DNA of 40,347 nucleotides from Coriobacteriales bacterium. GTDB lineage: Bacteria > Actinomycetota > Coriobacteriia > Coriobacteriales > UBA8131. Shown here in pieces: positions 540-16,576 of this stretch. The notes below the pieces were generated by a model. That model saw only the letters and a program-made list of their open reading frames with translations, was not told the DNA's origin and ran no database searches. Position numbers and translations under genes: made by a program. Position 1 is the stretch's first letter. Each line of letters begins with the position of its first letter. The stretch lies in contig JAISLY010000036.1 in NCBI GenBank assembly GCA_031277035.1, positions 1-40,347 on the forward strand, given 5' to 3'.

Positions 540-1609
540 TATGACAGGTCCAGGCGGTCAATCATGCAGAGCCCAACATGAGCGGGAGCACCGTAGCGGC
601 CGTGATAGTCTGAGCCACCGGTCACGATGAGCGCGTGATCCCGCGCCAGCTGTTCGACGACGCGCAGGTCGCGTTCGTTGTGGTCTGGATGGTATTTTTC
701 GATGCCGTCGAGCCCCGCGTCAACAAGCGCAGGCACGAATGCGAAGTTGTCCAAACGCCCGGGGTGCGCAAGCACCGCGATACCGCCATCCTCCTTGATG
801 GCCTGCACCGCGTCGCGGGCATCCACATACTCTATATCGCGCTCACATATGTTGCCATCCCGGAAGAACAGGCGATTGAGCCGCTGATAGGCACTGCTCG
901 CATACGGAGCGTCGGTAAGCTGCTCCATGATATGCTGCCGATAGAGTGCGGTCGCATCCTGCGCCGCCTGATATATCGCGGCGCGGTCAAACGCGACACC
1001 GTGCTTCTCCAGCTGTTCCATCTGCCAAAGCGTATTTTCGTGACGCCGCCTGAGAACAGGCTCGCACAGCGCCGCTATCGTAGGCGCATCCTCAGAAAAG
1101 AGCCCCAGTCCAAGAATATGCACTTTGCGATTCCGCTCAAAATCGAAGGCGCTTATCTCCACGCCACCTATGACCCGTATCCCATGCCGACCATCAAGCG
1201 CAAGCGCTGTGGACAGTCCACGGGTCGTATCGTGGTTTGTGAAGGCAAGATGCGTCAGACCCCACTCGCACGCCTGGTCGAGCACCTGCTCAAAGGTCTC
1301 GGAGCCGTCGGATACGGTGGTGTGGATGTGGAGGTCGGCCCGTACGGGAACGGGTGCAGCGGCGGCGCTTCGGCCCGCCGCGGCGCTTCGGCCCGCCGCG
1401 GCGCTTCGTCCGGGCGCGGCGCTTCGGCCCGCCGCGGCGCTTCGTCCGGGCGCGGCGCTTCGTCCGGGCGCGGCGCTTCGTCCCAGTGTGCCAACTCCGG
1501 GCGCAACGCTTCGGCCCGCCACAGCGCTCTGCCCAGGCGCAACGCTTCGGCCTGCCACAGCGCTCTGCCCAGGCGCAGCGCCGTCCCGTACAGCTGCCAT
1601 CTTAGCCAT
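539..1609 (-). CDS. phnPP: PHP-domain cyclic phosphodiesterase of phosphonate degradation (PhnPP)
   Basis: The predicted role is to open 5-phosphoribosyl 1,2-cyclic phosphate, the product of C-P lyase, and then remove the remaining phosphate to yield ribose 5-phosphate. That chemistry is established for the homologous PHP enzyme in the Eggerthella lenta phn operon. The metal-binding PHP motifs are visible: DLHIHT at residues 92-97, then NHDT, GVEIS, HPGR and DYHGR. The ATG at 1609 overlaps the phnL stop by 8 bases and follows AGGAAGG. Residues of roughly 11-88 are an Ala/Gly/Arg/Ser hexapeptide repeat encoded by an 18-bp array, which pushes the catalytic domain far from the start. A short variant could begin inside the repeat, but I see no better ribosome-binding site there. 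Confidence 0.88.
   Translation of the reverse strand: MAKMAAVRDGAAPGQSAVAGRSVAPGQSAVAGRSVAPGVGTLGRSAAPGRSAAPGRSAAAGRSAAPGRSAAAGRSAAAGRSAAAAPVPVRADLHIHTTVSDGSETFEQVLDQACEWGLTHLAFTNHDTTRGLSTALALDGRHGIRVIGGVEISAFDFERNRKVHILGLGLFSEDAPTIAALCEPVLRRRHENTLWQMEQLEKHGVAFDRAAIYQAAQDATALYRQHIMEQLTDAPYASSAYQRLNRLFFRDGNICERDIEYVDARDAVQAIKEDGGIAVLAHPGRLDNFAFVPALVDAGLDGIEKYHPDHNERDLRVVEQLARDHALIVTGGSDYHGRYGAPAHVGLCMIDRLDLS
1364..1489 (-). repeat. 18-bp tandem array in the 5' end of phnPP
   Basis: Seven units, the last diverged, start at 1364, 1382, 1400, 1418, 1436, 1454 and 1472. They alternate between two versions, GGCGCTTCGGCCCGCCGC and GGCGCTTCGTCCGGGCGC. On the minus strand they encode AAxGRS hexapeptides. 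Confidence 0.9.
1501..1572 (-). repeat. 36-bp tandem duplication in the 5' end of phnPP
   Basis: Two nearly identical 36-bp units (1501-1536 and 1537-1572) encode a 12-residue block on the minus strand. They lie just upstream, in gene direction, of the 18-bp array, so two expansions with different periods are stacked within one leader. Confidence 0.85.
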
Positions 1610-2297
1610 CAATAAAACCTTCCTGCATGTTGAACTCCCGATCACAAAGCCCCTCCATGAACTCCAGGTCGTGAAAGATGCCAAGCATCGTGCAGCCGCC
1701 CTGCTTCAAGCGCTCGATAAGCTCGCGCACCTTGCGTTTGGAAGCGTTATCAAGCGAGGCTGTCGGCTCGTCGAGCAGGAGCAACCGGGGCTTTTTAATC
1801 ATCGCGGCGGCAATGTTCAGACGCAGCTTCTCCCCGCCGGAAAAGGTCAGCGGGTACAGCTCCCACAGGCTCTCTGGCAGCTCAAAGTGCCTGAGCAGCC
1901 GTTCCGTTTCCTGCTCGGCATAGGCCCGGTCTCCCTCGCTCACAGCCTCCAGCGCACTTTGCACAACGGTGTCGTAGGCAGTGGTGCGGGGCAATACGTT
2001 GAGAAATTGCGAGATGTAGCCAATCTCAAAGCGTCGCAGGTACAGTATCTCGCGCTCGCTGGCCTTCATGAGGTCCAGCAGGCCGAGAGCCGCCGAACGG
2101 TAGAGGATGCTCCCATCCTGCGGCAGATTCGTGCGGTAGATGCTGCGCAGGATGGTCGATTTGCCGCTCCCACTGCGCCCGGTGATACCGACGAACTCAC
2201 CTGCCTGTACCGTGAGGCTGATAGACGAGCAGCCGCGAATGCTCCGACCGGCTTCATGGAGATAAAAGGACTTGGAAAGCCCCTCTATACGCAGCAT
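1602..2297 (-). CDS. phnL: PhnL, ABC-type ATPase subunit of the C-P lyase system
   Basis: With PhnG, H, I, J, K and M, PhnL takes part in loading phosphonate onto ribose and cleaving the C-P bond. It is an ABC-type ATPase not tied to a membrane permease. Walker A is GRSGSGKST (residues 40-48), the signature is FSGGEKLRLNIA, and Walker B runs into DEPTASLD. IGYISQFLNVLPR matches the Q-loop region of PhnL. I chose the ATG at 2297 because it follows GAGGG and matches the family start. In-frame ATGs at 2321 and 2345 also exist; the region between them is a 24-bp tandem duplication. The 3' end overlaps phnPP by 8 bases. Confidence 0.9.
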   Translation of the reverse strand: MLRIEGLSKSFYLHEAGRSIRGCSSISLTVQAGEFVGITGRSGSGKSTILRSIYRTNLPQDGSILYRSAALGLLDLMKASEREILYLRRFEIGYISQFLNVLPRTTAYDTVVQSALEAVSEGDRAYAEQETERLLRHFELPESLWELYPLTFSGGEKLRLNIAAAMIKKPRLLLLDEPTASLDNASKRKVRELIERLKQGGCTMLGIFHDLEFMEGLCDREFNMQEGFIDG

Positions 2298-2345
2298 GAA
2301 GCCCTCTTCTCTGCGCGACATACGACCTTCTTCTACGCGCGACAT
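2298..2345 (-). repeat. 24-bp duplication at the phnM-phnL junction
   Basis: Two diverged 24-bp units each begin with ATGTCGCGC on the minus strand. This gives phnL three possible in-frame start codons and lets it overlap the phnM stop. Confidence 0.65.
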
Positions 2346-3916
2346 GCGGCCCGCCTGCCCGCGTCGACTCCCCTGCCCGCGTCGACTCCCCTGCCCGCGT
2401 CGGCCCGCCTGCCCGCGTCGACTCCCCTGTTTTCGTCGGCTCCCCTGCTGTCCCGCTCATCATAGTGAGGGTAGCGTGTGTGAAACACCGATCGACCCTC
2501 CACAAAGACCTCCTCAACCACAGGAATGAGCTCGCCGCCCATATCGCTTTTACGCTCGCGTATGAGTAATATATCAGCACGTTTGCCCGCAGCCAGTTCG
2601 CCAAATTCGCGGTCGATGCCAACGGCACGCGCAGGATTGAGGCTTACGAGCGCAAAAGCATGCGGCAGCTCAAGACCGCAGCCGTAATGCAGTTCAAAGA
2701 CCGCGCGCAGCAACGCGGCGGGGCAATAATCGCTGCACAGGATGTCACAGGCGCCCGCGGTGATGGCTTCGCGTGCGGAGAGGTTGCCCGCATGTGAGTG
2801 ACCGAGAAGCACGTTCGGAGCGCCGCCGAGCGTATACATGCCGCGCGCGCGCGCGGTCTGCGCGACGGCCATCGAAATGGGAAATTCCGAGATGCCCGCG
2901 CCAATCTCTCGCATGAACGCGAGTTTCTCAACGCTGTCATCGTCGTGCGAGGCGATGGAAATCCCCCGTTCACGCGCCACGCCTGCCAGATGCCGCACCT
3001 CCTCAAGAGTGAGTTTGGCAGCAGTCTGCTGCTTGTCCACAAGCTCCTGCACCTGCTCATCGCTCAACTCGCCCTTGTAACTCTTAATCGTTTTGGCAAA
3101 AACCTCAAGGTCGCGATACTGCCCCTGCCCCGGTGTATGGTCCATGAACGAGACCAGGTCGACCTTATCCGCCAAAAGGCACTCCTCCACCTCGCGGAAG
3201 CGATCGACGGCGTCAAGCTCAAGACGGACATGCAGGCGATGCCGGATGAGGTGGTCGGTCGTCTCATGCGCACGCATACGATTGATGAGCTCGATGAGCC
3301 GCTCGACGTTCTCAAAGGCGCGGATGGGCTTGTGGTCAAAGATGAGCTGGCGATAGATCGAAAGCGAATGGTACATGGTGGTCACGCCGTAGGAGACGAG
3401 CAGCCGGTCAGCCTCATACAGGGCGGCGCGCAGGTCCAGGACAACGCTCGGCCGCGGCGAGGCGAGGGTCTCGATGTAGTCGGAGTGGATGTCGATAAAG
3501 CCGGGCGCCACGTAGCGACCGGTCGCGTCGATTACCCGCAGACTCGCAGAGGGGGTGCGCGGACGCCCCGGCTCGATGGCAAGGATGCGCCCGCCGGAGA
3601 TAAGCACGTCGTGAGCGGGCGCGAGGCGATCGGCAAGCACCACGGTACCGCCGCTTATGATGGTGGTCGGCAGGCCAGGGAGGTCGGATACCCGGCCGGC
3701 CGGCCGGCCACAGGCCTGGTCGGCTGCCTTGTCGGATACCAGGCCAGCCGCTCTGCCACAGGCCTGGTCGGCTGCCCTGTCGGATACCCGGTCGGCTGCC
3801 CTGCCACGAGCCCGGTCGGGCCCTGCGGCAAAAGGGACTGGGGGCCTCTGTTCCGTGAGTGTTCCCGTGAGTGTTCCTGTGAGTGTTCCCGTGAGTGTTT
3901 CTGTGTCTGTTCGCAT
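2333..3916 (-). CDS. phnM: PhnM, triphosphate-ribosyl phosphonate diphosphohydrolase
   Basis: PhnM removes diphosphate from the 5-triphosphoribosyl phosphonate intermediate, giving the 5-phosphate that PhnJ cleaves. It is an amidohydrolase-fold enzyme. DIHSDYIE matches the metal-binding strand, and SHDDDS, LGHSHAGN and CSDYCP follow in order. The catalytic part (about residues 81-485) fits the usual length near 380-400. The extra length is all repeat: residues 1-80 from a 12-bp and a 48-bp array, and about 40 C-terminal residues from an 18-bp array. The ATG at 3916 follows AAGGGAAG at good spacing and lies upstream of the 12-bp array, so the N-terminal repeats are probably translated. Confidence 0.92.
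   Translation of the reverse strand: MRTDTETLTGTLTGTLTGTLTEQRPPVPFAAGPDRARGRAADRVSDRAADQACGRAAGLVSDKAADQACGRPAGRVSDLPGLPTTIISGGTVVLADRLAPAHDVLISGGRILAIEPGRPRTPSASLRVIDATGRYVAPGFIDIHSDYIETLASPRPSVVLDLRAALYEADRLLVSYGVTTMYHSLSIYRQLIFDHKPIRAFENVERLIELINRMRAHETTDHLIRHRLHVRLELDAVDRFREVEECLLADKVDLVSFMDHTPGQGQYRDLEVFAKTIKSYKGELSDEQVQELVDKQQTAAKLTLEEVRHLAGVARERGISIASHDDDSVEKLAFMREIGAGISEFPISMAVAQTARARGMYTLGGAPNVLLGHSHAGNLSAREAITAGACDILCSDYCPAALLRAVFELHYGCGLELPHAFALVSLNPARAVGIDREFGELAAGKRADILLIRERKSDMGGELIPVVEEVFVEGRSVFHTRYPHYDERDSRGADENRGVDAGRRADAGRGVDAGRGVDAGRRAACRA
2355..2444 (-). repeat. 18-bp tandem array in the 3' end of phnM
   Basis: Five units of CTGCCCGCGTCGACTCCC and variants start at 2355, 2373, 2391, 2409 and 2427. 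On the minus strand they encode a G-V-D-A-G-R type hexapeptide tail on PhnM. Confidence 0.9.
3684..3788 (-). repeat. 48-bp tandem repeat in the 5' end of phnM
   Basis: The marker TCGGATACC recurs at 3684, 3732 and 3780, an exact 48-bp period. On the minus strand each unit encodes 16 residues containing RVSD or LVSD and ADQACGR. Confidence 0.88.
3855..3902 (-). repeat. 12-bp tandem array at the very start of phnM
   Basis: Four copies of GTGAGTGTTCCC or close variants start at 3855, 3867, 3879 and 3891. On the minus strand they encode a tetrapeptide repeat of T, L, T and G, only a few codons after the start codon. Confidence 0.92.
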
Positions 3917-3941
3917 AACTTCCCTTCAAATCTCTTCATGT

Positions 3942-4826
3942 TTACAGAAGCGAATGAACCAACTGCTGGGTGTACCGATGCTGCGGGTCTTCGAGTATCT
4001 GGTCAGTCAGGCCCCGTTCGATGATGCGGCCATCGAGCATGACCGCGCTTCGCTGCGCCAGCATGCGGATAACCCCAAGGTCGTGGCTCACGACCAGCAT
4101 GCTCACGTCGAGGTCACGACGCAAGGCGAGGACAAGATCGAGAACGGTCGCCTGCACCGAAAGGTCAAGCCCGGTAGTCACTTCGTCGAGCAACAGGATG
4201 GGTGGATTGTTCGAGAGCGCCTTGGCAATCTGGACACGCTGCTGCATCCCTCCCGAAAAAACGCGCGGTGGATCGGTTGCGCGAGAAAGCGGGATGTTAA
4301 CCTTCTCCAGAAGCGAGAGGCCCCGTGCGCGCATCTGCTCGACATTGCGGCAGCCCGCAGCAATCATCTGCTCGGCAATGTTTGAAAGCGAACTGAAATC
4401 CATACGGAGGCCAAGCCAGGGATTCTGATAGACCATTCCAAAAAACGCGTTGCGGATGGCACGCTTCTGTTGCGGCGAACACGCAAGGATATTGGAAGCG
4501 CCCTCGTCAACCAGCGCGGTGCGCACCGCCCCACTGCTGGCCTGCTGGTCAAAGGAAACACAGCGCATGAGCGTGGATTTACCGCTGCCGCTCTCCCCCA
4601 CAATGCCGACGATTTCGCCGGGATAGACCTCAAGCGAGACGTCGCGCAGGGCGTGCACGGTACCGCAACGCGGACAGACGTTGCGCTCAAGCTCGTGTTC
4701 AGGTTTGGCGCAAAAGGGGCAGCCCGTGCCAAAGGAACAGGAAAGGGATTCGATGGAGAGGATTGGGCGCTCAGTCTGCAGGGCTCCTGTGTCTGTGACA
4801 GGCGCTGTCGTTTTGCTCGCGCTCAC
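3942..4826 (-). CDS. phnK: PhnK, ABC-type ATPase subunit of the C-P lyase complex
   Basis: PhnK is the ABC-family protein that docks on the PhnGHIJ core. Walker A is GESGSGKST (residues 77-85), the signature is FSGGMQQRVQIA, and DEVTTGLD follows Walker B. Before Walker A lies an extra loop with two CxxC pairs (C36, C39, C51, C54) that resembles a zinc knuckle; E. coli PhnK lacks it as far as I recall. The start is GTG after GGGAGG. About 25 bases separate it from phnM and 61 from phnJ. Confidence 0.92.
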   Translation of the reverse strand: MSASKTTAPVTDTGALQTERPILSIESLSCSFGTGCPFCAKPEHELERNVCPRCGTVHALRDVSLEVYPGEIVGIVGESGSGKSTLMRCVSFDQQASSGAVRTALVDEGASNILACSPQQKRAIRNAFFGMVYQNPWLGLRMDFSSLSNIAEQMIAAGCRNVEQMRARGLSLLEKVNIPLSRATDPPRVFSGGMQQRVQIAKALSNNPPILLLDEVTTGLDLSVQATVLDLVLALRRDLDVSMLVVSHDLGVIRMLAQRSAVMLDGRIIERGLTDQILEDPQHRYTQQLVHSLL

Positions 4827-4887
4827 GGCTGCGCCTCCCTCTGCGGGTTTTGAGCGTCTGGTCGCGCCTGGGTCGTCCTTTGTGCGC

Positions 4888-5745
4888 TCACGTCTGCGCC
4901 TCCCGCCGCGTCTGCGCCTCCCGCCGCGTTTGGCAGTAACTGGTGTCGTTGCACTGGTGGAAGACCTCCCCGGTGTCGGGGTCGGTCAGTTCGTCAAAAT
5001 ACACGCCCTGAGCCCCACAGACGCGACAGCGGATGCCCTCAAACGTCTCGGGCGCAAAGGGGTAGTCCTCAAAATCGAGCGAGACCACCGAAGTCCAGGG
5101 CGGCACAGCGTATATCTTCTTCTCACGTCCCGCGCCAAGTAAGGTGAGATGCGCGGCATTGTTGAGCTTGTGGTTGTCAAAGCGCGGAATGGGCGAGGGC
5201 GCCATCACGTAGCGACCGTTTACGAGGACGGGATGATCCGCGCCCGTCGTCATGTTGCCATAGCGTACCACCTGCTCAAAGAGGCCAAGCCAGGCGCCCG
5301 TATAGTCCGCCTCGGCGTGAAGGCGGCGCGTTTCGGATTCGCGCGGTTCGATGTCGCGCAAAGGCTCGGGCGTAGGCACCTGCAAGACAAGCACCTGCTC
5401 GGCGGTCAGGGGTACTTCGGGGATGCGATGGCGCGACTGGATAAGGCTTGCCCTGGCCGTCTCGTCCGTAATCTCAACGCCGGTCGTCGCGACGATGAGC
5501 TTTTTGATATTGACCGCATTCACGCTCCCGTCATGCCCCTGATCGATGACCTTGAGCACCTCGTCAGGCCCAATGATGGCCAGCGTTATCTGAAGACCTC
5601 CCGTCCCCCAACCGCGGCCAATCGGCATCTCGCGCGAGGCAAACGGCACCTGATAGCCGGGAATAGCAATGCCTTTGAGAATGGCGCGACGAATCTCACG
5701 TTTGGAGCCCTCGTCAAAAAACGCGAAGTTATACAGCTGTCGCAT
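4888..5745 (-). CDS. phnJ: PhnJ, radical SAM C-P lyase
   Basis: PhnJ is the catalytic subunit that breaks the carbon-phosphorus bond of ribose-1-phosphonate 5-phosphate by radical chemistry, releasing alkane and the 1,2-cyclic phosphate. The four conserved cysteines are present at C240, C243, C265 and C271 (CxxC, then CNDTSYC). This is the spacing of the E. coli enzyme, where they are 241, 244, 266 and 272. Other family signatures are IPGYQVPF, GWGTGG, RHRIPE and GAGREKKIYAVPP. The ATG at 5745 follows AGGAGG and overlaps the phnI stop by 17 bases. The tail is a QTRREA hexapeptide duplication. Confidence 0.96.
   Translation of the reverse strand: MRQLYNFAFFDEGSKREIRRAILKGIAIPGYQVPFASREMPIGRGWGTGGLQITLAIIGPDEVLKVIDQGHDGSVNAVNIKKLIVATTGVEITDETARASLIQSRHRIPEVPLTAEQVLVLQVPTPEPLRDIEPRESETRRLHAEADYTGAWLGLFEQVVRYGNMTTGADHPVLVNGRYVMAPSPIPRFDNHKLNNAAHLTLLGAGREKKIYAVPPWTSVVSLDFEDYPFAPETFEGIRCRVCGAQGVYFDELTDPDTGEVFHQCNDTSYCQTRREAQTRREAQT
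4891..4926 (-). repeat. 18-bp tandem duplication in the 3' end of phnJ
   Basis: Two identical 18-bp units (4891-4908, 4909-4926) encode QTRREA twice at the C-terminus, immediately after the last cluster-binding cysteine. Confidence 0.85.
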
Positions 5746-6955
5746 GGCTGGCCTCCTGGCTTCCGTCTGTCCTTTCCTCCCGGGCGAAAGCGGCCCCGGG
5801 GACGTCTGCATCATGCCTGGTTCGCCGCACGCTGTTCAGCTTTGACTGGAAGGTCACGTAATGGGGCAGCTTCAGATGGGAGATAAAGCCCGTCGCCTCG
5901 ATGCTGTCGACGTGGTACAGCACAAATTCCTCATCCTGAGTGGGAAAGGTCTCGTCGCCAAGCGTCAGGCAGTGGTCGAGTATGCTCATCGCGATGGCCT
6001 TGCTCTCCGCGCGTCCGTAGACAAGCCCGTAGCCGATGGCGAAGCTCAGTTCGTGCGTGTCGTCTGCAGACGCCGCTTCCTGCTCTTCGCGTTCGACGCT
6101 GAACAGGCTCTCGACCTCCGTGACCGCAAGCGCACCCACGTAATAGGCATCCTCCTCATCTCCGGCCTCAAAGGGGTGGTCGACCAGCACGTCAAGTGTG
6201 CCGTAGCGCAACTCGCCCACCGTGGGATGCGCGGGGCCAAAGCCGCGAAGCGCGGCGTAGCCAAGCGCCATGACCGCCTGTGTCATGCCGCGTGCGAGTA
6301 TCTGAAGACGGACATCGCGACCCGCAGGAAAGCTCAGCGGCTCCATGGTGATGTCCCGGGGCGGCGTGTCGTCGGGCGGCGGAGGCGTGAGGAGGCCCTG
6401 TGCCCTGAGGGAGGCGGCGACTTTTGGAAGATTGGGAAAGCCCTGGGGCGCTTCCGCGGCGGGGGCGGACACGGCGGGGGCGGGGGCGGGGGCAGGCACG
6501 GCGGGAACGGGAGCAGGCGCCGCAGGACTGGCAGAATCGGAAGCCTGCTCTTCTCCGTCAAGGCGAAAATCAAGCAGGCGGTGACTGTAGTCGCGTGTCA
6601 CGCCCAGTATCTGTCCGCCGAGAATATCCTTAAAGGCCGCCGAGATTCGGCGTTTAACCCTCATGTTCCCCGTTTCGATAATCCGCGAGGTATAGGGCCG
6701 CTCCAGAGTCGAGCGAAAGGCCCGCAACAGGAAAACCGCCTCTTCCACCGAACCTCCCCCCTGCCTGAGGGCAAGCGCCGCAAGCGAAGGTTCGTACAGC
6801 GAACTTTCTCCCATCACCTGGTCGATAAGCTCGGGCAGGGCGGCGGCTATCCGCGCGCTGGCCACATTGGCGGCGGGGTCAGAGAGGCCCTCGGAAAGGA
6901 GCTCAAGGCTTGCCGCTATCGCTTCCTCGCCGCCGCTGACCGCTACATAGGCCAC
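5729..6955 (-). CDS. phnI: PhnI, C-P lyase core subunit
   Basis: PhnI, with PhnG and PhnH, attaches the phosphonate to ribose, displacing adenine from ATP. It forms part of the PhnGHIJ core. The start YVAVSGGEEAI matches the family, and family blocks such as RPYTSRIIETG and KRRISAAFKDILGGQILGVTRDYSHRLLDF-type text follow in order. The GTG at 6955 lies one base after the phnH stop and behind AGGAGG; a longer frame upstream has no such support. Residues of about 137-171 are a Pro/Ala-rich linker inside the protein, a repeat-like insertion. Confidence 0.93.
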   Translation of the reverse strand: MAYVAVSGGEEAIAASLELLSEGLSDPAANVASARIAAALPELIDQVMGESSLYEPSLAALALRQGGGSVEEAVFLLRAFRSTLERPYTSRIIETGNMRVKRRISAAFKDILGGQILGVTRDYSHRLLDFRLDGEEQASDSASPAAPAPVPAVPAPAPAPAVSAPAAEAPQGFPNLPKVAASLRAQGLLTPPPPDDTPPRDITMEPLSFPAGRDVRLQILARGMTQAVMALGYAALRGFGPAHPTVGELRYGTLDVLVDHPFEAGDEEDAYYVGALAVTEVESLFSVEREEQEAASADDTHELSFAIGYGLVYGRAESKAIAMSILDHCLTLGDETFPTQDEEFVLYHVDSIEATGFISHLKLPHYVTFQSKLNSVRRTRHDADVPGAAFAREERTDGSQEASHATAV

Positions 6956-6956
6956 T

Positions 6957-7694
6957 TCAGACCTCCTCAATACGCGCCGTGCGCGGCAAACCGACAAGCT
7001 GCCCGCCTTCGTCGATCAACAGAAGATCGATACCGCAGGGAAACTCGTCGCCACGCGCCGCGCGAGCGGTGCACCAGAAGGCGCTGCTGGCCCTGAAGAA
7101 ATGGTGCGTCTGGACGCCGGGGCCCGTGACGACAAAGCGATGAGACGGGGGCCTGGCTGCCGATTTTCTACGTGAGACGCTGCCGGCATCACCGGTTTTG
7201 GTGTCCTGTGCGAGAGAGGCACACTCAATCAGCACACTCGCTCCCCGTTCGGGCGACCGTGGCGTCCCACCGCTGAGCGCGGTCATGAGCGCAGTAGCCG
7301 TGTCCTCAGGCGCATCTTTGGCAAGAAGCAGAAACTGCGCCTCGTGCGCGGCGATGCGCCGTGCGTAGGTAAGCGTCGTTATCATTGAGGCAAGCGCATC
7401 GGCACCTGCCAGGCCGTCCGCGCCGTTTCCGTTCGTCCCCGCGACGCAAAAGCCGCAGCTGCTGTCGAACAGCATATGGACGAGCGTTTCCAGGCAGGGG
7501 TTTGCCAACAGAGGGCGGGGCGTCGGCGGTATCGTGCCCACCAGCCCCGGACGAGCCATGGCATTCATGCTGACGCGAAAAGCGCGTTGGGTCAGGTACA
7601 GTGCTTCGGCATGCAGGTCGGGGGTAAAGTCGCGGCCTGTCTGCGCCGCGCCCTGCACAGCAGCCTGTCTGCTGTCTGTTCCGCCGTGCGTCAT
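6957..7694 (-). CDS. phnH: PhnH, C-P lyase core subunit
   Basis: PhnH is part of the PhnGHIJ core with PhnG and PhnI. Family features are AFRVSMNAMARPG near residue 40, VTGPGVQ in the middle and FPCGIDLLL near the end. The ATG at 7694 overlaps the phnG stop by 4 bases (ATGA), indicating translational coupling. A linker of about 30 residues before VTGPGVQ (TKTGDAGSVSRRKSAARPP) looks variable. Confidence 0.92.
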   Translation of the reverse strand: MTHGGTDSRQAAVQGAAQTGRDFTPDLHAEALYLTQRAFRVSMNAMARPGLVGTIPPTPRPLLANPCLETLVHMLFDSSCGFCVAGTNGNGADGLAGADALASMITTLTYARRIAAHEAQFLLLAKDAPEDTATALMTALSGGTPRSPERGASVLIECASLAQDTKTGDAGSVSRRKSAARPPSHRFVVTGPGVQTHHFFRASSAFWCTARAARGDEFPCGIDLLLIDEGGQLVGLPRTARIEEV

Positions 7695-8356
7695 CGGCTC
7701 ATCGCCCCTCCCCCTGCGCGATCCTCTTCGGTCAACATGTCGGCAAAGCTGACTCGCGTCGCCTCAAGTCGGTCTCGCGCCGCACGCTCGTGGACAGAAA
7801 GCCGTTCTTCCTCCTGTTCAAGCGCAGCGCACCAGCCCGGCATCTGAGCGGCGATTGCCGGCACCGTCCGTGCACCAAAGGCCGCGTCGATAACCGCCAG
7901 TTCGTAGGCCCTCTCAGCCTTACGCCCGAGGATAAGCCCGATGCCAATGCTCTGACCAAGCCTGACCTTACACTCGGTGAGCAGTGCTTCGCCGAGATAG
8001 AACAGGCTGTTTTGGGCACTTTCTCGCACCTTGTTCATCAGGAGAATTTCGCGCGGCCCATCAAGACGCTCGATGGGAGCCAGCGCCTCAATCTGCGCGC
8101 ACAGCTCACGCGCAAGCCCTGCGTCCCCCTCAATGAGGACGCGGGTGCGACGCCTGCGCGACAGCGACTGGCCTGCGTGCGAATGCGTGCTCTGGTCTGC
8201 GTGCGAATGCGTGCTCTGGTCTGCGAGAGACAGCGGCTCGTCTGCGTGCGAATGCGTGCTCTCGCCGACGCGAGAAGGCGCTCGCTCGTCTGCGGAGACG
8301 GAGGCATGGGCACCTTCAGGCTGCCCTGCAAGGCGGGTCTCGGGTACCGACATCAC
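7691..8356 (-). CDS. phnG: PhnG, C-P lyase core subunit
   Basis: PhnG is a small core subunit needed with PhnH and PhnI for ribose-phosphonate formation. Recognition rests on KVRESAQNSLFYLGEALLTE and the following VRLGQSIG, typical of PhnG. The core of about 150 residues begins near residue 70. Residues 30-66 are a repeat of THSHADQ-type octapeptides from a 24-bp array. The start is GTG at 8356, overlapping the phnE stop as GTGA; the next codon is ATG and could be used instead. Confidence 0.9.
   Translation of the reverse strand: MMSVPETRLAGQPEGAHASVSADERAPSRVGESTHSHADEPLSLADQSTHSHADQSTHSHAGQSLSRRRRTRVLIEGDAGLARELCAQIEALAPIERLDGPREILLMNKVRESAQNSLFYLGEALLTECKVRLGQSIGIGLILGRKAERAYELAVIDAAFGARTVPAIAAQMPGWCAALEQEEERLSVHERAARDRLEATRVSFADMLTEEDRAGGGAMSR
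8173..8265 (-). repeat. 24-bp tandem array in the 5' end of phnG
   Basis: Units CTGCGTGCGAATGCG plus CTCTGGT start at 8173, 8197 and 8242, with a diverged 21-bp unit between the second and third. They encode STHSHADQ-like octapeptides on the minus strand. Confidence 0.88.
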
Positions 8357-9213
8357 GCGATGTACCTCTTTCTCAGCCGGGTTGCCACGATTTCCAGCAC
8401 AGCCGCGACCGCCAGGCAGCAGTAGACGATAGCTCCCACCTCGTGAATGTTGTGATAAAAGCTGCCCGCAAGATACAGCTCGTAACCAATGCCGCCTGCA
8501 CCAGCGACCGCACCTACGGCGACCGCGTTCACAAAGTTAATCTCAAAGCGAATAAAGGTCCAGCTCAGAAGTTCGCTCATCTTTGTCGGCACAACCGCTG
8601 AGAAGACGACCTGCCACCAGGATGCGCCGCTTGCTCGCAGCGCCTCGATAACGCCCGCATCAAGCTCCTCAAAGCTCTCAGAATATGCTTTCACGAGATA
8701 GGCGACGCCGTGAAAGAGCAGGCCGCAGACCGCCGCCTCGGGGCCAAGTCCGACGGCGACCGTAAACACAAGAACCCACAGGATGGTAGGCACTGCGCGA
8801 AAAAAGGACATGACGGCCTTGATGACATTGCTGAGGACACGATTGCTCAGATTCGCGGCGGCGAGAAGGCCCAAAACGAAGGCGATAATCGCACTGATGA
8901 AGGTGGTGAGCACCGCGAGCGCGAGCGCGACGATAAGCGCCTTGATGATCTCGCCCCAGGAGAAGTGCTTGTCGATGGAGGGCTGTGTCATCATCGTCCA
9001 GAAATCACCCGCGGCCTTTGCCAGGGCATCGAAAAACGAGACCCTGCCGTAGTCGATGCTCAACATCGTGTAGACCGTGAGCAGGGTCAATATCACCAAC
9101 ACGAGCGCGATGACGACATTGGCACGAGAGAAAACGCGCACGCGGATGAGCCCGTTTCTCGTAAAGCGGATGCTCGCCTCTGCCGAAGCGTCCCTGCCTG
9201 CCGGCGTCCTCAC
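8353..9213 (-). CDS. phnE: phosphonate ABC transporter permease PhnE (second copy)
   Basis: This is one of two consecutive inner-membrane permeases that would pair with PhnC and PhnD to import phosphonates. A transmembrane helix follows the first 25 residues, and several more follow. The permease-ATPase contact loop reads ALRASGASWWQVVFSAVVP, the usual EAL-x3-GA pattern. The start is GTG at 9213, overlapping the upstream permease stop as GTGA. Confidence 0.92.
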   Translation of the reverse strand: MRTPAGRDASAEASIRFTRNGLIRVRVFSRANVVIALVLVILTLLTVYTMLSIDYGRVSFFDALAKAAGDFWTMMTQPSIDKHFSWGEIIKALIVALALAVLTTFISAIIAFVLGLLAAANLSNRVLSNVIKAVMSFFRAVPTILWVLVFTVAVGLGPEAAVCGLLFHGVAYLVKAYSESFEELDAGVIEALRASGASWWQVVFSAVVPTKMSELLSWTFIRFEINFVNAVAVGAVAGAGGIGYELYLAGSFYHNIHEVGAIVYCCLAVAAVLEIVATRLRKRYIA

Positions 9214-10172
9214 AGGATCGCCCGCCTGATGAAGTTTGAGGTGAGTTCCAGCGAGATAACCACGATGACGATTGCGATGACTACCAGGCCGGCCGCAGCG
9301 TAGTTAAAACTCTTATAGTACAAATCGAAGACAAAGCCGATGCCCGTGCCTGTCAGAATGCCAATCAGGGTGGCGTCGCGAACGTTGGTCTCAATCATGT
9401 AGAGTATCCAGCTCAACACGACGGTTGAGCAAAGCGGTATGACCGCCTGAGCGATAATCTGCCCGTAGCTGGCCCCCGTGGCTCGCAGGGCCTCGACCGC
9501 ACCGCCTGAGACCTCGTCGATGCTCTCGAGAAAACAGCGCATCAAATAGCCGAAACTCGTAAGGAACAGGGCCAGAAAGCCCGTGAACTCGCTTTGTTTG
9601 AAGGAAAAGAGCAGGATGAGGGCCCAGGCAACGGTCGGGATATTCCGAAAGAGCGAGGCGATGGCGCGAACAATCAGCTGAGCGGGGCCACCCACGCCCA
9701 CCGAGCGCGAGCCGAGAACCGCAAAAACGAGTGCAAGCAGGGCAGAAAGGCAGCTTGCGGCGATGGAGACGAGCACGGTGGCGGCCAGCTGATTGAGTAT
9801 CGTCGGCAATTTTGCAAGCGATTCGACAGAAGGGATAAAGTTCACGAACATCCACGCGAGGCCCGCCGGCACGTCGATGAGGGTCTTGACGAGATCGAAG
9901 TCGAGGTAGTTTCCAGTCAGGAGATTGAGGAGCACAAGCCCTACAGCGACACCTATGATGACAAAGGTGCGGCGATGGAAAAATGCCGCGAGCCGCGCAG
10001 TGCCACTGGGGTTGAGGCCGCCGCCGACGGCAACAGCGGCAGCGGCGGGAGCAGCTGAGGCAACAGCGGCAGCGGAGGCGGCGGGGGCAGCTGAGGCAAC
10101 AGCGGCAGCGGGGGCAGCAGCCTTGCCGTCGGCGGCGGCGGCTGAGGCGGCCTTGCGTTCCTTTCTGCTCAT
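9210..10172 (-). CDS. phnE: phosphonate ABC transporter permease PhnE (first copy)
   Basis: Inner-membrane permease of the phosphonate importer, with a contact loop ALRATGASYGQIIAQAVIP. It differs enough from the next permease that the two probably form a heterodimer. The N-terminal 50 or so residues before the first helix are an Ala-rich repeat (AAPAAAVAS type). The ATG at 10172 overlaps the phnC stop as ATGA and follows AGGTGG. The C-terminus ends in GTGIGFVFDLYYKS and a last helix. Confidence 0.92.
   Translation of the reverse strand: MSRKERKAASAAAADGKAAAPAAAVASAAPAASAAAVASAAPAAAAVAVGGGLNPSGTARLAAFFHRRTFVIIGVAVGLVLLNLLTGNYLDFDLVKTLIDVPAGLAWMFVNFIPSVESLAKLPTILNQLAATVLVSIAASCLSALLALVFAVLGSRSVGVGGPAQLIVRAIASLFRNIPTVAWALILLFSFKQSEFTGFLALFLTSFGYLMRCFLESIDEVSGGAVEALRATGASYGQIIAQAVIPLCSTVVLSWILYMIETNVRDATLIGILTGTGIGFVFDLYYKSFNYAAAGLVVIAIVIVVISLELTSNFIRRAIL
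10030..10131 (-). repeat. 30/36-bp tandem array in the 5' end of phnE
   Basis: The block GCAACAGCGGCAGCGG recurs at 10030, 10060 and 10096, periods of 30 and 36 bp. It encodes an Ala-rich N-terminal extension ahead of the first membrane helix. Confidence 0.82.
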
Positions 10173-11065
10173 GCCACCTGTGACAGAGAAGGCGTCTGCT
10201 CCGCGTCCTTCTCCTCTTCGACCTTCATCCCGTACAACTCCTCAATGAATGCCGCACTTAAACTCTCAGGCGTACCGTCGTAGACAAGCTCGCCGCCGCG
10301 CAGAGCCAGGATGCGGTCCGAATACTCCAGGGCATACTCAACCTGATGCAGATTGACGAGGCAGGCGATGCCCAGCGTATCGGCGATGGCGCGCAGGTAT
10401 CCCATGATGATGCGGGAGGATTTTGGGTCGAGGCTGGCAACCGGCTCATCGCACAGCATCAGCAGAGGATCCTGCACAAGGGCCCGGGCGATACCAACAC
10501 GCTGCATCTGACCGCCCGAAAGTTGATCGCAGCGCACGTAGGCGAACTCGATGATGCCCAGCTGAGAAAGGACGTCAAGCGCCTTACGCTTCTCGTCTTC
10601 CGTGTAGCGCCCAATCATCCCCGCAAAAGTCGATTTATAGCCAAGGCGACCGTGCAGCACGTTCTCGATGGTTGTCAGGCGATGGACAAGATTGTAGTGC
10701 TGGAAAATCATACTGATGCGGCGACGCAGGGCGCGCAGATCGCGACGGCCCGCGCGCATCACATCCTGCCCGTCAAAATTGACGCTGCCACTGCTTGCCT
10801 CAACCATGCGGTTGAGGCAACGCAGCAGGGTCGATTTGCCCGCGCCCGAGGGCCCGATGACACTGACAAGCTCCCCGCGCCGCAAGGTAAAACTCACGTC
10901 ATGCAGGGCGGGGCGCTCGCGGGTGTAGTTTTTTGTCAGACTCTCGACGACAAGGAGAGGCTCTGTCTGCATTCCCTGGGCGGGAAACACTTCCACACGA
11001 GCAGGGCCCACGGGAAGGGCATCAGGGTCACAGGGCTCTACGCGAAGGGGCTCAATGGTGCTCAT
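10169..11065 (-). CDS. phnC: phosphonate ABC transporter ATPase PhnC
   Basis: This is the energising subunit of the phosphonate importer. Walker A is GPSGAGKST (residues 71-79), the signature LSGGQMQRVGIA, Walker B leads into DEPVASLDP, and the H-loop is VNLHQVEYA. The DEPVASLDP variant is typical of PhnC. About 35 residues precede the usual family start (near PLLVVESLTKNY). The start ATG lies 15 bases after phnD with only a weak AAGGG some distance upstream, so coupling to phnD is likely. Confidence 0.94.
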   Translation of the reverse strand: MSTIEPLRVEPCDPDALPVGPARVEVFPAQGMQTEPLLVVESLTKNYTRERPALHDVSFTLRRGELVSVIGPSGAGKSTLLRCLNRMVEASSGSVNFDGQDVMRAGRRDLRALRRRISMIFQHYNLVHRLTTIENVLHGRLGYKSTFAGMIGRYTEDEKRKALDVLSQLGIIEFAYVRCDQLSGGQMQRVGIARALVQDPLLMLCDEPVASLDPKSSRIIMGYLRAIADTLGIACLVNLHQVEYALEYSDRILALRGGELVYDGTPESLSAAFIEELYGMKVEEEKDAEQTPSLSQVA

Positions 11066-12556: not shown

Positions 12557-13447
12557 CTATTGCGTACCGCGCTGGGAGATGATAAGCCCCGCGATGATGG
12601 CGATGATGCCCACAATGCCTGCTGCGGCAATCGACTCCCCAAGCAGGAAGAACGCGGCGACGCTGCCGATTGCCGGCGGGAAGTAGAGGTAGATGCTCGT
12701 CTTGCCCTCACCGATGAGGCGCGTGGAGAGGCTGTAGAGGATGTAGGCGGCCGAGGACGCAAGCAGGCCGAGAACCAGCAGGGAGACGAGCACGTCAGGT
12801 GCGAGGAAGTTCACATCGCTGACATCAAAGCCGTAGAACAGCACGAAGGGAGCAAGTGTCACAAGGCCCCAGAAGAAGATGCGACGGATGCTCAGTATCG
12901 TATCGGCGCCGTCGCCCTCGTCGGTACGCCGCACAATGACGCAATAGTTCGCCCACAACACGTTACCCGCAAGTGCCAGGAGGGTGCCAAACAGGGTAAC
13001 CTGAAGACCGACGCCGCCCGCTGTCACCACGAGAACGGTGCCTGCGGTCGCGAGCATAAAACCGACGAAGAACTGCCATGTGGGGCGTCTGCGATACACA
13101 ATCCACATCGCAACGGAGACAAACAGGGGCCCGAGCGCACAGATGATGGTCACGAAGGATGCCGAGGTAAACAGCAGCGAACTGTACTCCAGCAGATAAT
13201 AAAACGACACGCCGCAGGCCCCACAGACGACAAAGGGCCACTCGCTGCGCCATCCGTTCCACTTTGGCAGACGTGGCCGAATAAGCCAAAGCGCCACGTA
13301 GGCAATCGCAAAGCGCAGAAACAGCGTCTCAAAGGTACTCAGGCCCGCATTCATCGCCATCTTGGTTGAAACGAAGGTAAATCCCCATATGATTGCGGTA
13401 CCCAGGCCACAGAGATGACCGACGAGGTGCGCATGACGGGGAGTCAT
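12557..13447 (-). CDS. EamA/DMT-family transporter
   Basis: A 296-residue membrane protein with about ten hydrophobic segments in two similar halves, as in the drug/metabolite transporter superfamily. The start GLGTAIIWGFTFVSTKMAM is typical of EamA domains, and the second half contains RLIGEGKTSIYLYFPPAIG followed by FFLLGESI. The substrate cannot be told. The ATG at 13447 overlaps the pth stop as ATGA. It sits between pth and phnD on the same strand, with no evidence that it serves phosphonate use. Confidence 0.88.
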   Translation of the reverse strand: MTPRHAHLVGHLCGLGTAIIWGFTFVSTKMAMNAGLSTFETLFLRFAIAYVALWLIRPRLPKWNGWRSEWPFVVCGACGVSFYYLLEYSSLLFTSASFVTIICALGPLFVSVAMWIVYRRRPTWQFFVGFMLATAGTVLVVTAGGVGLQVTLFGTLLALAGNVLWANYCVIVRRTDEGDGADTILSIRRIFFWGLVTLAPFVLFYGFDVSDVNFLAPDVLVSLLVLGLLASSAAYILYSLSTRLIGEGKTSIYLYFPPAIGSVAAFFLLGESIAAAGIVGIIAIIAGLIISQRGTQ

Positions 13448-14166
13448 TCGGGCCAATCGGGCGCGGGCGAAGATGCGGGGGTGGGCGCGGCGGGCGGAGC
13501 GGGCGGAGCAGGCGGAGCGGGATTAGGCGCGGGCTCGGGCGCGGGCGGAGCAGGATTAGGCGCGGGCGCGGGCTCGGGCGAGGATGCGGCGGGCGGCGCG
13601 GCGGGCGCGGGCTCGGGCGCGTGGTGCTCGTTCATCGCCTGGAGGATGCCATCTTTGAGGGCGGCGCGGGCGAGCTCAGCCGCCCGGGCGCAGGTCAGCG
13701 CAAACTCCTCCAACTCGCTGCCCTTCATGCGGGCCAGAACAAAGTCGGCAGCGTCCATGCGCCCGGGCGGACGCCCGATGCCCACGCGCAGGCGCGCGTA
13801 GTCGGAGCCAAGCGCCTGGTGCAGCGAGCGCAGGCCCTTGTGCCCGCCCGCGCCGCCGCCCAACTTCAGGCGCAGGGTGCCGGGAGAAAGGTCGAGTTCG
13901 TCGTGGATGACCAGCATGTCAACAGCGCTCAGGCCAAGGCGGGCAAGAGCCCCCTTCACCGGACCACCGCTGAGGTTCATGAAGGACTGAGGCTTGAGGA
14001 GCACGACCTTCTCACCCTCACAGGAAGCCACTCCCATAAGGGCATCGCCCGCAAGTTTCCAGTAGTTCACCTTCAGTTCGTCCGCCAGCAGGTCAACAAC
14101 GCGAAAGCCCGCGTTGTGGCGGGTATCGACGTAGGCAGGCCCGGGGTTTCCGAGCCCGACAATCAT
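13444..14166 (-). CDS. pth: peptidyl-tRNA hydrolase
   Basis: Pth recycles peptidyl-tRNA released from stalled ribosomes. The start MIVGLGNPGPAYVDTRHNAG contains the catalytic His and Asn region. GPVKGAL, VIHDELDL and GGGAGGHKGLRSL follow as in the family, and RLRVGIGRPPG is present. The ATG at 14166 follows AAAGG and matches the family; a GTG at 14187 is a weaker option. After about residue 185 the protein ends in a Pro/Ala/Glu tail of about 55 residues built from PAPPAPEPAP-type repeats, not part of the enzyme fold. Confidence 0.94.
   Translation of the reverse strand: MIVGLGNPGPAYVDTRHNAGFRVVDLLADELKVNYWKLAGDALMGVASCEGEKVVLLKPQSFMNLSGGPVKGALARLGLSAVDMLVIHDELDLSPGTLRLKLGGGAGGHKGLRSLHQALGSDYARLRVGIGRPPGRMDAADFVLARMKGSELEEFALTCARAAELARAALKDGILQAMNEHHAPEPAPAAPPAASSPEPAPAPNPAPPAPEPAPNPAPPAPPAPPAAPTPASSPAPDWPE
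13473..13621 (-). repeat. Pro/Ala-coding imperfect repeat in the 3' end of pth
   Basis: A purine-rich, very GC-rich run of GGCGGAGCG, GGCGCGGGC and GATTAGGCG motifs repeats irregularly. On the minus strand it encodes the PAPPAPEPAP tail of Pth. Unit boundaries are blurred, so I give no single period. Confidence 0.75.
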
Positions 14167-14204: not shown

Positions 14205-15167
14205 CTAAAGCTGAAAGTCGGGGTCGAACAGCTCGGAGACCGAGGCTTCCAAAAAGACATTGCTCACAGCCTTTGCCAGAAGCGGCGCCACGGTTATCAC
14301 CTTGATTTTGCCGGTCTGCTGCTCCTGGGGAACCGGCACCGTATCGCAGACGATGACCTCCTCGGCTTCCACATTGGCGATGCGTTCGTAGGCCGGCCCG
14401 GAGAACAGCCCGTGCGTCGCGCAGATGAAGATTGCCGTTGCGCCCTGAGCACGCAGGGCCTTGACCGCCGCGTCGATGGAGCCGGCGGTGTCGATCATGT
14501 CGTCGTTGATGATACAGGCCTTGCCCTCGACGTTGCCGATGACATTGGTGACCTCGGCGACATTGTGGTCGGGGCGGGCCTTGGCGAGGATGGCGAGGTC
14601 GGCACCGAGCATGTCCGCGAGTTTTTTGGCGGCCTTGGCACGCCCGACGTCGGGCGAGACGACGCAGAGGTTCTCAATACCCTTGGCCAAAAAGTAATCC
14701 GCAAAAATCGGCAGCGCCGTAAGGTGATTGACCGGGATGTCAAAAAATCCCTGTATCTGCCCCTGGTGCAGGTCAACCGCGATGATGCGGTCGACGCCGG
14801 CAACGGTGAGCAGATTGGCGACCAGTTTGGCGGTAATCGGCTCGCGCGAGGCCGATTTTTTGTCCTGTCGGGAATAGCCATAGTGCGTGATGACCGCCGT
14901 CACGCTGCGGGCCGAGGCGCGCTTTGCCGCGTCGGTCATAATGAGAAGCTCCATCAGTGCCTCATTGAGCGCTCCCGAGATAGACTGGACGATAAAGACA
15001 TCGCTGCCGCGCACACTTTCCAGATACCGGGCGTATATCTCGCCATTTGAGAAGGTCGTGAGCTTGATGTTGCCAAGCGACACGCCCAGATGCTGGGCAA
15101 TTTTCTCTGCCAGGTCGGGGTTGATGCGTCCCGTGTAAAGCTTCAGGTTCTTCGTAACTTCGGTCAT
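14205..15167 (-). CDS. prs: ribose-phosphate pyrophosphokinase
   Basis: Prs makes PRPP from ribose 5-phosphate and ATP for nucleotide, His and Trp synthesis. Motifs are [16 protein letters not shown], the catalytic [22 protein letters not shown], and the PRPP loop DDMIDTAGS. The length of 320 residues is normal. The ATG at 15167 follows AGGGGAGG and overlaps the glmU stop as ATGA. In the phn context it would convert the ribose 5-phosphate released by PhnPP back to PRPP, the step PhnN provides in E. coli; that link is inference, since glmU-prs-pth clustering is common anyway. Confidence 0.96.
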
Positions 15168-16576
15168 TGCGGCCTCCCCTTTGATTGTTCTTCCGGTGCG
15201 TTGTCTGGTGCTGCTGCCTCTGGTGCTGCTGGTGCCGTTGGTGCCGTTGGTGCTGCTGCCTCTTTTGATGCCGTTGGCGGTGCGTTTTCTGGTGGTGCGT
15301 CCTCGGAATGCGTTTTCAAAGCCCCTCTCAACACGCCTTTTGCCTTCTTCGCCTGTTGCTTCAGGCTCGCCCGGCTGTGCTGTTCGGCCCAATGCTCCTT
15401 GACGATCTGCTTGGTGCGTTCGATGGCAAGCGCACCGTCGGGCACGTCGCGTGTGATGACGCTGCCCGCACCGATAACCGCGTGGGCGCCAACGCGCACC
15501 GGCGCCACAAGCATCGTGTCGGAGCCGACAAAGGCCTGGTCGCCAATCTCGGTGGGATTTTTGGCCGAACCGTCGTAATTGCAGGTAATCGAGCCTGCCC
15601 CGATATTTACCTCAGAACCGAGTGTCGCATCGCCCAGATAGCTCAGATGCGGCACCTTGCTTCCCGGGCCAATCGTCGAATTCTTAATCTCCACATGCGT
15701 ACCGGCCTTGGAGCCGCGCTTCATGAGGGTGCCCGGGCGCAGATAGGCGCGTGGCCCCACCTGCACGCCGTCCTCAAGGGTCACCCGATCGAGGATGCTT
15801 TCCTCCACGCAACAGTCGCTCCCAATGACCGAATCGCTGATGCGTGTGTTTGGGCCAACTGTGCTGCCCGCCCCTATGCTCGTCGTACCCCAGAGCATGG
15901 TCAGCGGGAGCAGTTCCGTGTCGTTTTCGAGGGAGACATCCGGGCCGATCCACACGAGGTCGGGGTCCAGCATGCTCACGCCCGCCTCCAGGTGCGCCTG
16001 ATTGATGCGGCGCTGCATCGCCTTGGTGGCCTGCGCAAGCTGTGCGCGGGTCTCGATACGCTGGGGGCCGGGGCCGACTGACCCCTGCTGCTGTTGAGGT
16101 GCCGCGAAGGTTGCGATTTCCTGCGGGGTAAGCAGCGCCGCAGTGCCGTGCAGCACTACCAGCTCGCTTGCCCCGCCGGCCTTCTCCAATTCCGCACGAG
16201 CGGCCTCGATGGCGGCCTCGATGGCAGTCGCGGAGGTGGCCTCGGAGGCTTCGGGGGCCGCGGAGGTGGCCGCGGAGGGGGCCGCGGAGGCCTCGTCGGC
16301 CTCGGGGGTGGCGCCCGACGCGCCCGCCGCACCAGACGCGCCCGTCGTATCCGCACATGCAATGATGGTCGTATCCTGGACAAGCGACGCGAGCTGCTCG
16401 TATCCGCGCCCGTTGGGATCGAGGGTCACAAAGATTCGCTCGCTGCCGGCCGCCCAGGCTGCGTCTACAACCCAGCGTATGAGCGGCTTGCCGAGCAGCG
16501 TGTGAGCAGCCGTCGCACGACGGGACTTCATCTGTGCATCGGTGCCTGCCGCCAGTATTAACGTGGAAAATGCCAT
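15164..16576 (-). CDS. glmU: GlmU-like protein with intact acetyltransferase half and degenerate uridyltransferase half
   Basis: GlmU normally acetylates glucosamine 1-phosphate (C-terminal half) and couples the product to UTP (N-terminal half). The C-terminal left-handed helix looks functional: [24 protein letters not shown] with the catalytic His, and [13 protein letters not shown]. The N-terminal half does not. [11 protein letters not shown] replaces the LAAGxGTRM nucleotide loop, the metal-binding GD has become GT (residues 144-145), and the GVNNR motif reads RIETR. The half is shortened and carries an Ala/Ser/Glu/Thr linker (about 79-118). A repeat tail follows the helix. ATG at 16576 follows GAGGGAG. 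It is probably monofunctional. Confidence 0.88.
15196..15300 (-). repeat. Ala/Pro/Thr-coding repeat in the 3' end of glmU
   Basis: GGTGCTGCT, GGTGCCGTT and GCCTCT blocks repeat across the last codons of glmU and encode its [16 protein letters not shown] tail. Periods are multiples of 3 but irregular. Confidence 0.65.

Follow-up and report, generated by a model that had tools for sequence, protein, structure and literature searches.

The window analyzed here, a stretch of 40,347 nt, carries a glmU gene with an ordinary acetyltransferase half and a strongly altered uridyltransferase half. This raises the question of whether the altered domain is dead and, if so, how the cell would make UDP-GlcNAc. 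The window is contig C51 of genome G000, a MAG of an uncultured member of the Coriobacteriia with 1.82 Mb in 62 contigs (72.7% complete, 4.5% contamination).

The glmU locus and its uridyltransferase domain

The gene at 15164-16576 (minus strand) is one uninterrupted reading frame of 470 aa. A sequence-only reading of the window had proposed a glmU ORF here and the ORF proved real, matching the NCBIfam glmU model (TIGR01173) at E=2e-91 with a strong stretch at residues 174-400 (model positions 223-450). The protein fell below the equivalog cut-off of this model (307 compared to 366.85 bits; 276.9 bits in the genome search) because the N-terminal domain scores almost nothing. A PDB search gave a weak N-terminal GlmU match at residues 5-68 and a strong match over the acetyltransferase. 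The glmU stop codon overlaps the ATG of prs (ribose-phosphate pyrophosphokinase, 14205-15167, minus strand) as ATGA, and pth (peptidyl-tRNA hydrolase, 13444-14166, minus strand) completes a glmU-prs-pth operon in the usual gene order. In a tree of the acetyltransferase domain G000 was placed inside its family beside G008 (support 94/81). Operon order and domain phylogeny identified the gene as an ortholog of bifunctional glmU. No other GlmU was found in the window or elsewhere in the G000 assembly (72.7% complete). By sequence inspection, the window also contains a phosphonate cluster of the C-P lyase type at 1602-11065 (minus strand). It includes a phnM-like amidohydrolase gene, genes for two ABC proteins, phnJ-, phnI-, phnH- and phnG-like genes, phnE-type permease genes, a phnC-type ATPase gene and a gene for a substrate-binding lipoprotein.

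The uridyltransferase (NTP-transferase) domain was reduced to a remnant of residues 1-172 (16061-16576; this and all further glmU features are on the minus strand) where about 229 residues are expected. All five uridyltransferase motifs (the GxGTR loop, the PK lysine, GTGHA, GD and GVNNR) were altered or absent. The nucleotide loop at residues 8-18 (16523-16555), LAAGAGTRMKS in relatives, was degenerate as the sequence-only reading had described. ATAAH (16502-16516) replaced PKVAH or AKVAH with loss of the catalytic-loop lysine (K to T22). A low-complexity Ala/Ser/Gly/Glu linker at residues 75-118 (16223-16354) replaced the uracil-binding QEERLGTGHAVM motif. GTAALL (16130-16147) replaced GDTPLL or GDTPLI with loss of the metal-binding Asp at G144-T145, and RIETR at residues 173-177 (16046-16060) replaced GINSR or GVNNR with loss of the metal-binding Asn. 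Both of these replacements had been read correctly. The substrate-contact changes were G13D, T14A, R15Q, K22T, V23A, D to T, P to A, G to R and N to E. The sequence-only reading had further described about 40 residues as replaced by an Ala/Ser/Glu linker. The linker is present but the main loss is a separate and larger one, a deletion of approximately 95 residues compared to family GlmU that starts directly behind the GDTPL block, stops shortly ahead of GINSR and is bridged by residues approximately 165-172 (16061-16084). Judged by position, the deleted residues would include the counterparts of sugar-site contacts (Glu166, Tyr185, Thr211 region) of M. tuberculosis GlmU, the pocket residues of which are listed in PMC9105790.

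Block alignments with 23 relatives were used to separate motif loss from general divergence. In the first N-terminal block 14 of 19 near-invariant positions were kept and the five lost were all in the catalytic loop, while in a leave-one-out control on the same block intact relatives retained 89-100%. Identity over this block was 55% between G000 and its relatives compared to 66% among the relatives. Chance or sequencing error is an unlikely source of the motif loss, since the lost positions are substrate contacts and the surrounding block is mostly kept. Compensated frameshifts were rejected as a source, the codon-level comparison indicating in-frame substitutions. The loop after GTGHA tolerates inserts in this family because several relatives carry Ala-rich inserts there, directly after an intact GTGHA in G013, G018 and the close relative G008. 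The linker of G000 lies at this site, and its unusual feature is that the QEERLGTGHAVM motif before the linker is also gone. Given a correct assembly, the uridyltransferase domain has very probably decayed. The apparently dead domain of the sequence-only reading was borne out in that every catalytic motif tested was lost.

The acetyltransferase half, the relatives and the need for UDP-GlcNAc

The linker helix and left-handed beta-helix acetyltransferase domain occupy residues 178-405 (15362-16045). On this side 79 of 80 near-invariant positions were kept, the one lost being the uridyltransferase metal Asn. The catalytic residues E296 and H310, equivalent to E348 and H362 in S. aureus and S. 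pneumoniae GlmU, were present, in agreement with the earlier view of the acetyltransferase as intact. Identity of this half to relatives was 65%, compared to 64% among the relatives themselves. A 35 nt stretch of the acetyltransferase coding sequence (15845-15879) was repeated with 97% identity at G000:C21:14557-14591 (L105:1501-1535), near rubrerythrin-like and pheA-like genes. The protein ends in an Ala/Pro-rich tail (residues 406-470; 15167-15361). Ala/Pro/Ser-rich linkers or tails were observed in several housekeeping proteins of G000 and its relatives, among them glmU (the tail just given), pth (13444-14166) and tig (L116:6841-8220), and low-complexity insertions are apparently a habit of the lineage.

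A GlmU match was found in 29 of the 32 other genomes of the family (30 of 33 including G000). Motifs were normal in every readable N-terminal half among the relatives, including the nearest. Where the domain was fully assembled these were LAAGxGTRM (GKRM in G013), the basic loop lysine, GTGHA or an equivalent, a GDTPL-type motif and G(I/V)NxR. G008, the closest neighbour of G000 in the acetyltransferase tree, retains intact LAAGAGTRM...GTAHAVM; the loss is therefore recent and, as far as sampled, confined to the G000 lineage. G000 is the one genome in which the degenerate form was observed. For G001, the only same-genus genome, the assembly lacks the region of glmU and prs. The bifunctional form had been taken as normal for this lineage, and this was upheld by the alignment with GlmU from relatives, in which, among the readable N-terminal halves, the catalytic motifs were lost only in G000.

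Contig C24 of G000 encodes, in order, mraW, ftsL, a penicillin-binding protein, murE, murF, mraY, murD, ftsW, murG, murC, murB and an ftsQ-like gene, with names assigned by recognisable sequence. Six Mur-ligase-domain matches were found in G000, the same number as in relatives. No murA was found in G000 at E<=1e-5 and G001 gave a weak match that was not full-scoring; both assemblies are incomplete. Wall loss was rejected on the basis of the complete murE-murB cluster with murG and mraY and the Mur-ligase matches as in relatives. The gene content indicates that the cell still builds peptidoglycan and would therefore still need UDP-GlcNAc.

A stand-alone nucleotidyltransferase on contig C37

The sequence-only reading held that another enzyme must make UDP-GlcNAc and saw none in the window. 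A candidate was found outside the window on contig C37 of G000; its turnover of GlcNAc-1-P and UTP is suggested by gene distribution and context. The recommended genome search for a second GlmU or a UDP-sugar pyrophosphorylase returned no second GlmU and, at E<=10, no UDPGP/AGX-type pyrophosphorylase, in an assembly that is 72.7% complete. Two further nucleotidyltransferases of G000 were less suitable, one on C1 being an NTP transferase fused to an HTH and matching NCBIfam models weakly and one on C25 being MobA/DVU_1551-like.

The C37 enzyme is a stand-alone nucleotidyltransferase of 327 aa (G000:C37:8213-9196). It is a full-length homologue of PDB 3PNN (E=5e-61), its only PDB homologue by sequence, and that entry is titled 'conserved domain protein' with no substrate named. 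The motifs LAAGxGSR...K, WGTAHA, NADD and GVTY are intact and common to its homologue in a second genome, G320. Its hhalign alignment with the N-domains of intact GlmU extended over 232 columns (E=1e-6). The NCBIfam matches of the enzyme at E<=0.01 did not include the galU model TIGR01099. None of the 32 other family genomes has the 3PNN-type enzyme, which was found in two of 400 genomes of the class, G000 and G320.

The ATG of the C37 enzyme gene overlaps the stop codon of tig (trigger factor) by 8 nt. In relatives, including G001, tig is followed by galU; a search of G000 (72.7% complete) gave no GalU. From this arrangement the gene likely replaced galU in place. Beyond the pair with tig, gene order upstream and downstream is not syntenic with G001. 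The tetranucleotide correlation of C37 with the window was 0.96-0.97, compared to at most 0.77 for contigs of relatives; one stretch of C24 gave a lower match to the window of 0.74. The tig of C37 was closest to that of G001 (73% identity). C37 was rejected as a contaminant because its profile is nearly identical to that of the window and its tig is closest to that of G001. The C37 enzyme was probably acquired horizontally and probably now performs the lost uridyltransferase step.

G320 belongs to another family of the order (93% complete, 19 contigs, 1.51 Mb read). No GlmU was found in the 19 contigs and 1.51 Mb read. G320 has prs-pth, MurA, GalU, an RmlA-type enzyme and glmM. Its glmM adjoins a gene for a 270-aa stand-alone LbH (beta-helix) acetyltransferase, the best NCBIfam match of which was the C-terminal part of Arch_glmU (129 bits). 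The 3PNN-type gene overlaps the gene that follows it, which encodes a kinase predicted to make N-acetylhexosamine 1-phosphates; the matches of this kinase to N-acetylhexosamine 1-kinases (NahK) of solved structure reach E about 1e-80. G320 is the single independent observation of a 3PNN-type enzyme without a GlmU uridyltransferase, since G000 prompted the search.

In G320 the region 117117-124946 of contig C4 (L156) encodes MurQ, PTS, MupG, the 3PNN-type nucleotidyltransferase, the NahK-like kinase and an MFS transporter. This amino-sugar cluster is possibly a route that salvages wall sugars and yields a UDP-sugar. The pairing of kinase and nucleotidyltransferase follows the same logic as AmgK/MurU recycling, in which a separate anomeric kinase and a sugar-1-phosphate uridylyltransferase are used (PMC13046382), but MurU works alongside an intact GlmU and the families differ from the G320 pair. 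The 3PNN-type relatives on Ruminococcus and Parabacteroides plasmids had no NahK neighbour, a point against the proposed role. In Ruminococcus albus 7 a beta-helix protein and a 3PNN-type enzyme are carried on two plasmids. With related split parts present in Clostridia, splitting of the UDP-GlcNAc pathway may be older than the G000 case and more widespread. The beta-helix protein at NC_014824.1:357505-358173 (L246) is annotated 'UDP-N-acetylglucosamine pyrophosphorylase'; its homologue in G320 (51% identical) gave acetyltransferase-type matches only, so the label is probably a misannotation.

Competing explanations and significance

The explanation that we consider probable is that GlmU of G000 acts as an acetyltransferase only and that the acquired C37 enzyme makes UDP-GlcNAc. 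With the uridyltransferase site decayed, the trimeric acetyltransferase would still turn GlcN-1-P into GlcNAc-1-P. The step from GlcNAc-1-P and UTP to UDP-GlcNAc would be performed in trans, most likely by the horizontally acquired stand-alone 3PNN-type nucleotidyltransferase. Coverage of the step in trans would have relaxed selection on the N-terminal catalytic site of GlmU. In the order that we reconstruct, the catalytic residues would have drifted, the insert-prone loop would have become a linker and about 95 residues would have been deleted, while the segment in frame with the acetyltransferase was retained. The case for replacement draws on two genomes, of which one (G000) is an incomplete MAG.

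It is unlikely that the domain is dead but the step is performed by a second GlmU or another pyrophosphorylase encoded outside the assembly, with the C37 enzyme a GalU substitute making UDP-glucose. The missing 27% of G000 leaves room for such an enzyme, and the C37 enzyme, standing behind tig where relatives have galU in a genome in which GalU was not found, might serve Glc-1-P only. A mere GalU substitute fits G320 poorly, however. That genome has the same enzyme together with an intact GalU and without GlmU, which makes it the unassigned candidate there for GlcNAc-1-P, and its kinase neighbour is N-acetylhexosamine-specific by homology.

An assembly artefact, a strain chimera or a recent pseudogene, with the true glmU of the organism intact, was judged improbable. 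The gene is known from a MAG, and its linker is repetitive and rich in GC (0.75 GC), which makes assembly errors likelier there. Against an artefact, independent substitutions beyond the repeat stretch have hit catalytic residues while the rest of their block is conserved. The reading frame is uninterrupted, the remnant has a normal GC3 (0.68-0.75), the downstream domain is strongly constrained, and the window and C37 share one composition.

Residual uridyltransferase activity through a rebuilt active site is very improbable. The AlphaFold model of the 470-aa protein (mean pLDDT 59.7, 7-row alignment) was confident for the beta-helix and not for the N-terminal remnant. The prediction still gives some of the Rossmann-like half a fold (strands at residues 3-8, 45-52, 70-73 and 138-143). 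However, the protein lacks the Asp and Asn that bind metal, Arg and Lys of the loop, the GTGHA motif for uracil binding and the entire half that binds the sugar, and model confidence at the site is below 50. Foldseek matches of the model were GlmU entries with low TM-scores and lend weak support. It is scarcely credible that the lineage no longer needs UDP-GlcNAc for its wall and that the whole pathway is decaying, as the murA results and the G001 assembly without GlmU might suggest, given the complete murE-murB cluster, the Mur-ligase count and the fully conserved acetyltransferase.

The G000 protein shares with bifunctional GlmU (TIGR01173; E. coli 1HV9/2OI6, M. tuberculosis 3SPT) its operon position within the family, the beta-helix with conserved acetyltransferase residues and the first part of the N-terminal fold. 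It differs in having no uridyltransferase motifs, in being about 95 residues shorter in that half and in falling under the equivalog cut-off. The GlmU acetyltransferase fragments PDB 4AA7 and 3TWD (chains of 231 and 222) are a precedent for this half folding as a separate unit, but those are crystallography fragments whereas the G000 state is natural and keeps the remnant domain. In the LbH protein of G320 and its relatives labelled 'UDP-N-acetylglucosamine pyrophosphorylase' (Ruminococcus albus pRUMAL01, Vescimonas) an acetyltransferase-type beta-helix is separate from any nucleotidyltransferase domain. Unlike G000 GlmU, the G320 protein is only distantly related to GlmU C-domains and is not a decayed GlmU. 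For the 3PNN sugar-phosphate nucleotidyltransferase family, of which the C37 enzyme is a full-length homologue, GlcNAc-1-P is proposed here as substrate. No account of a naturally monofunctional GlmU, or of its replacement by the 3PNN-type family, was found in a literature search with most subscription journals outside its scope. What appears new here is the intermediate, a half-dead GlmU.

GlmU is a standard antibacterial target and, to our knowledge, is usually treated as the sole bacterial route to UDP-GlcNAc. A natural lineage with a dead GlmU uridyltransferase and a candidate replacement suggests that this step can be displaced. Annotation by best hit would label the G000 protein bifunctional, which serves as a warning. 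The proposal offers a testable substrate for a structurally solved enzyme family (3PNN) without an assigned function, and the GlmU of G000 offers a snapshot of a fused bifunctional enzyme coming apart. More tentatively, one acquired 3PNN-type enzyme may have replaced both GalU and the GlmU N-domain, and this orphan family may be a general stand-alone UDP-GlcNAc pyrophosphorylase. If that were true, G000 would be an intermediate stage, halfway from the fused pathway to the complete split of G320.
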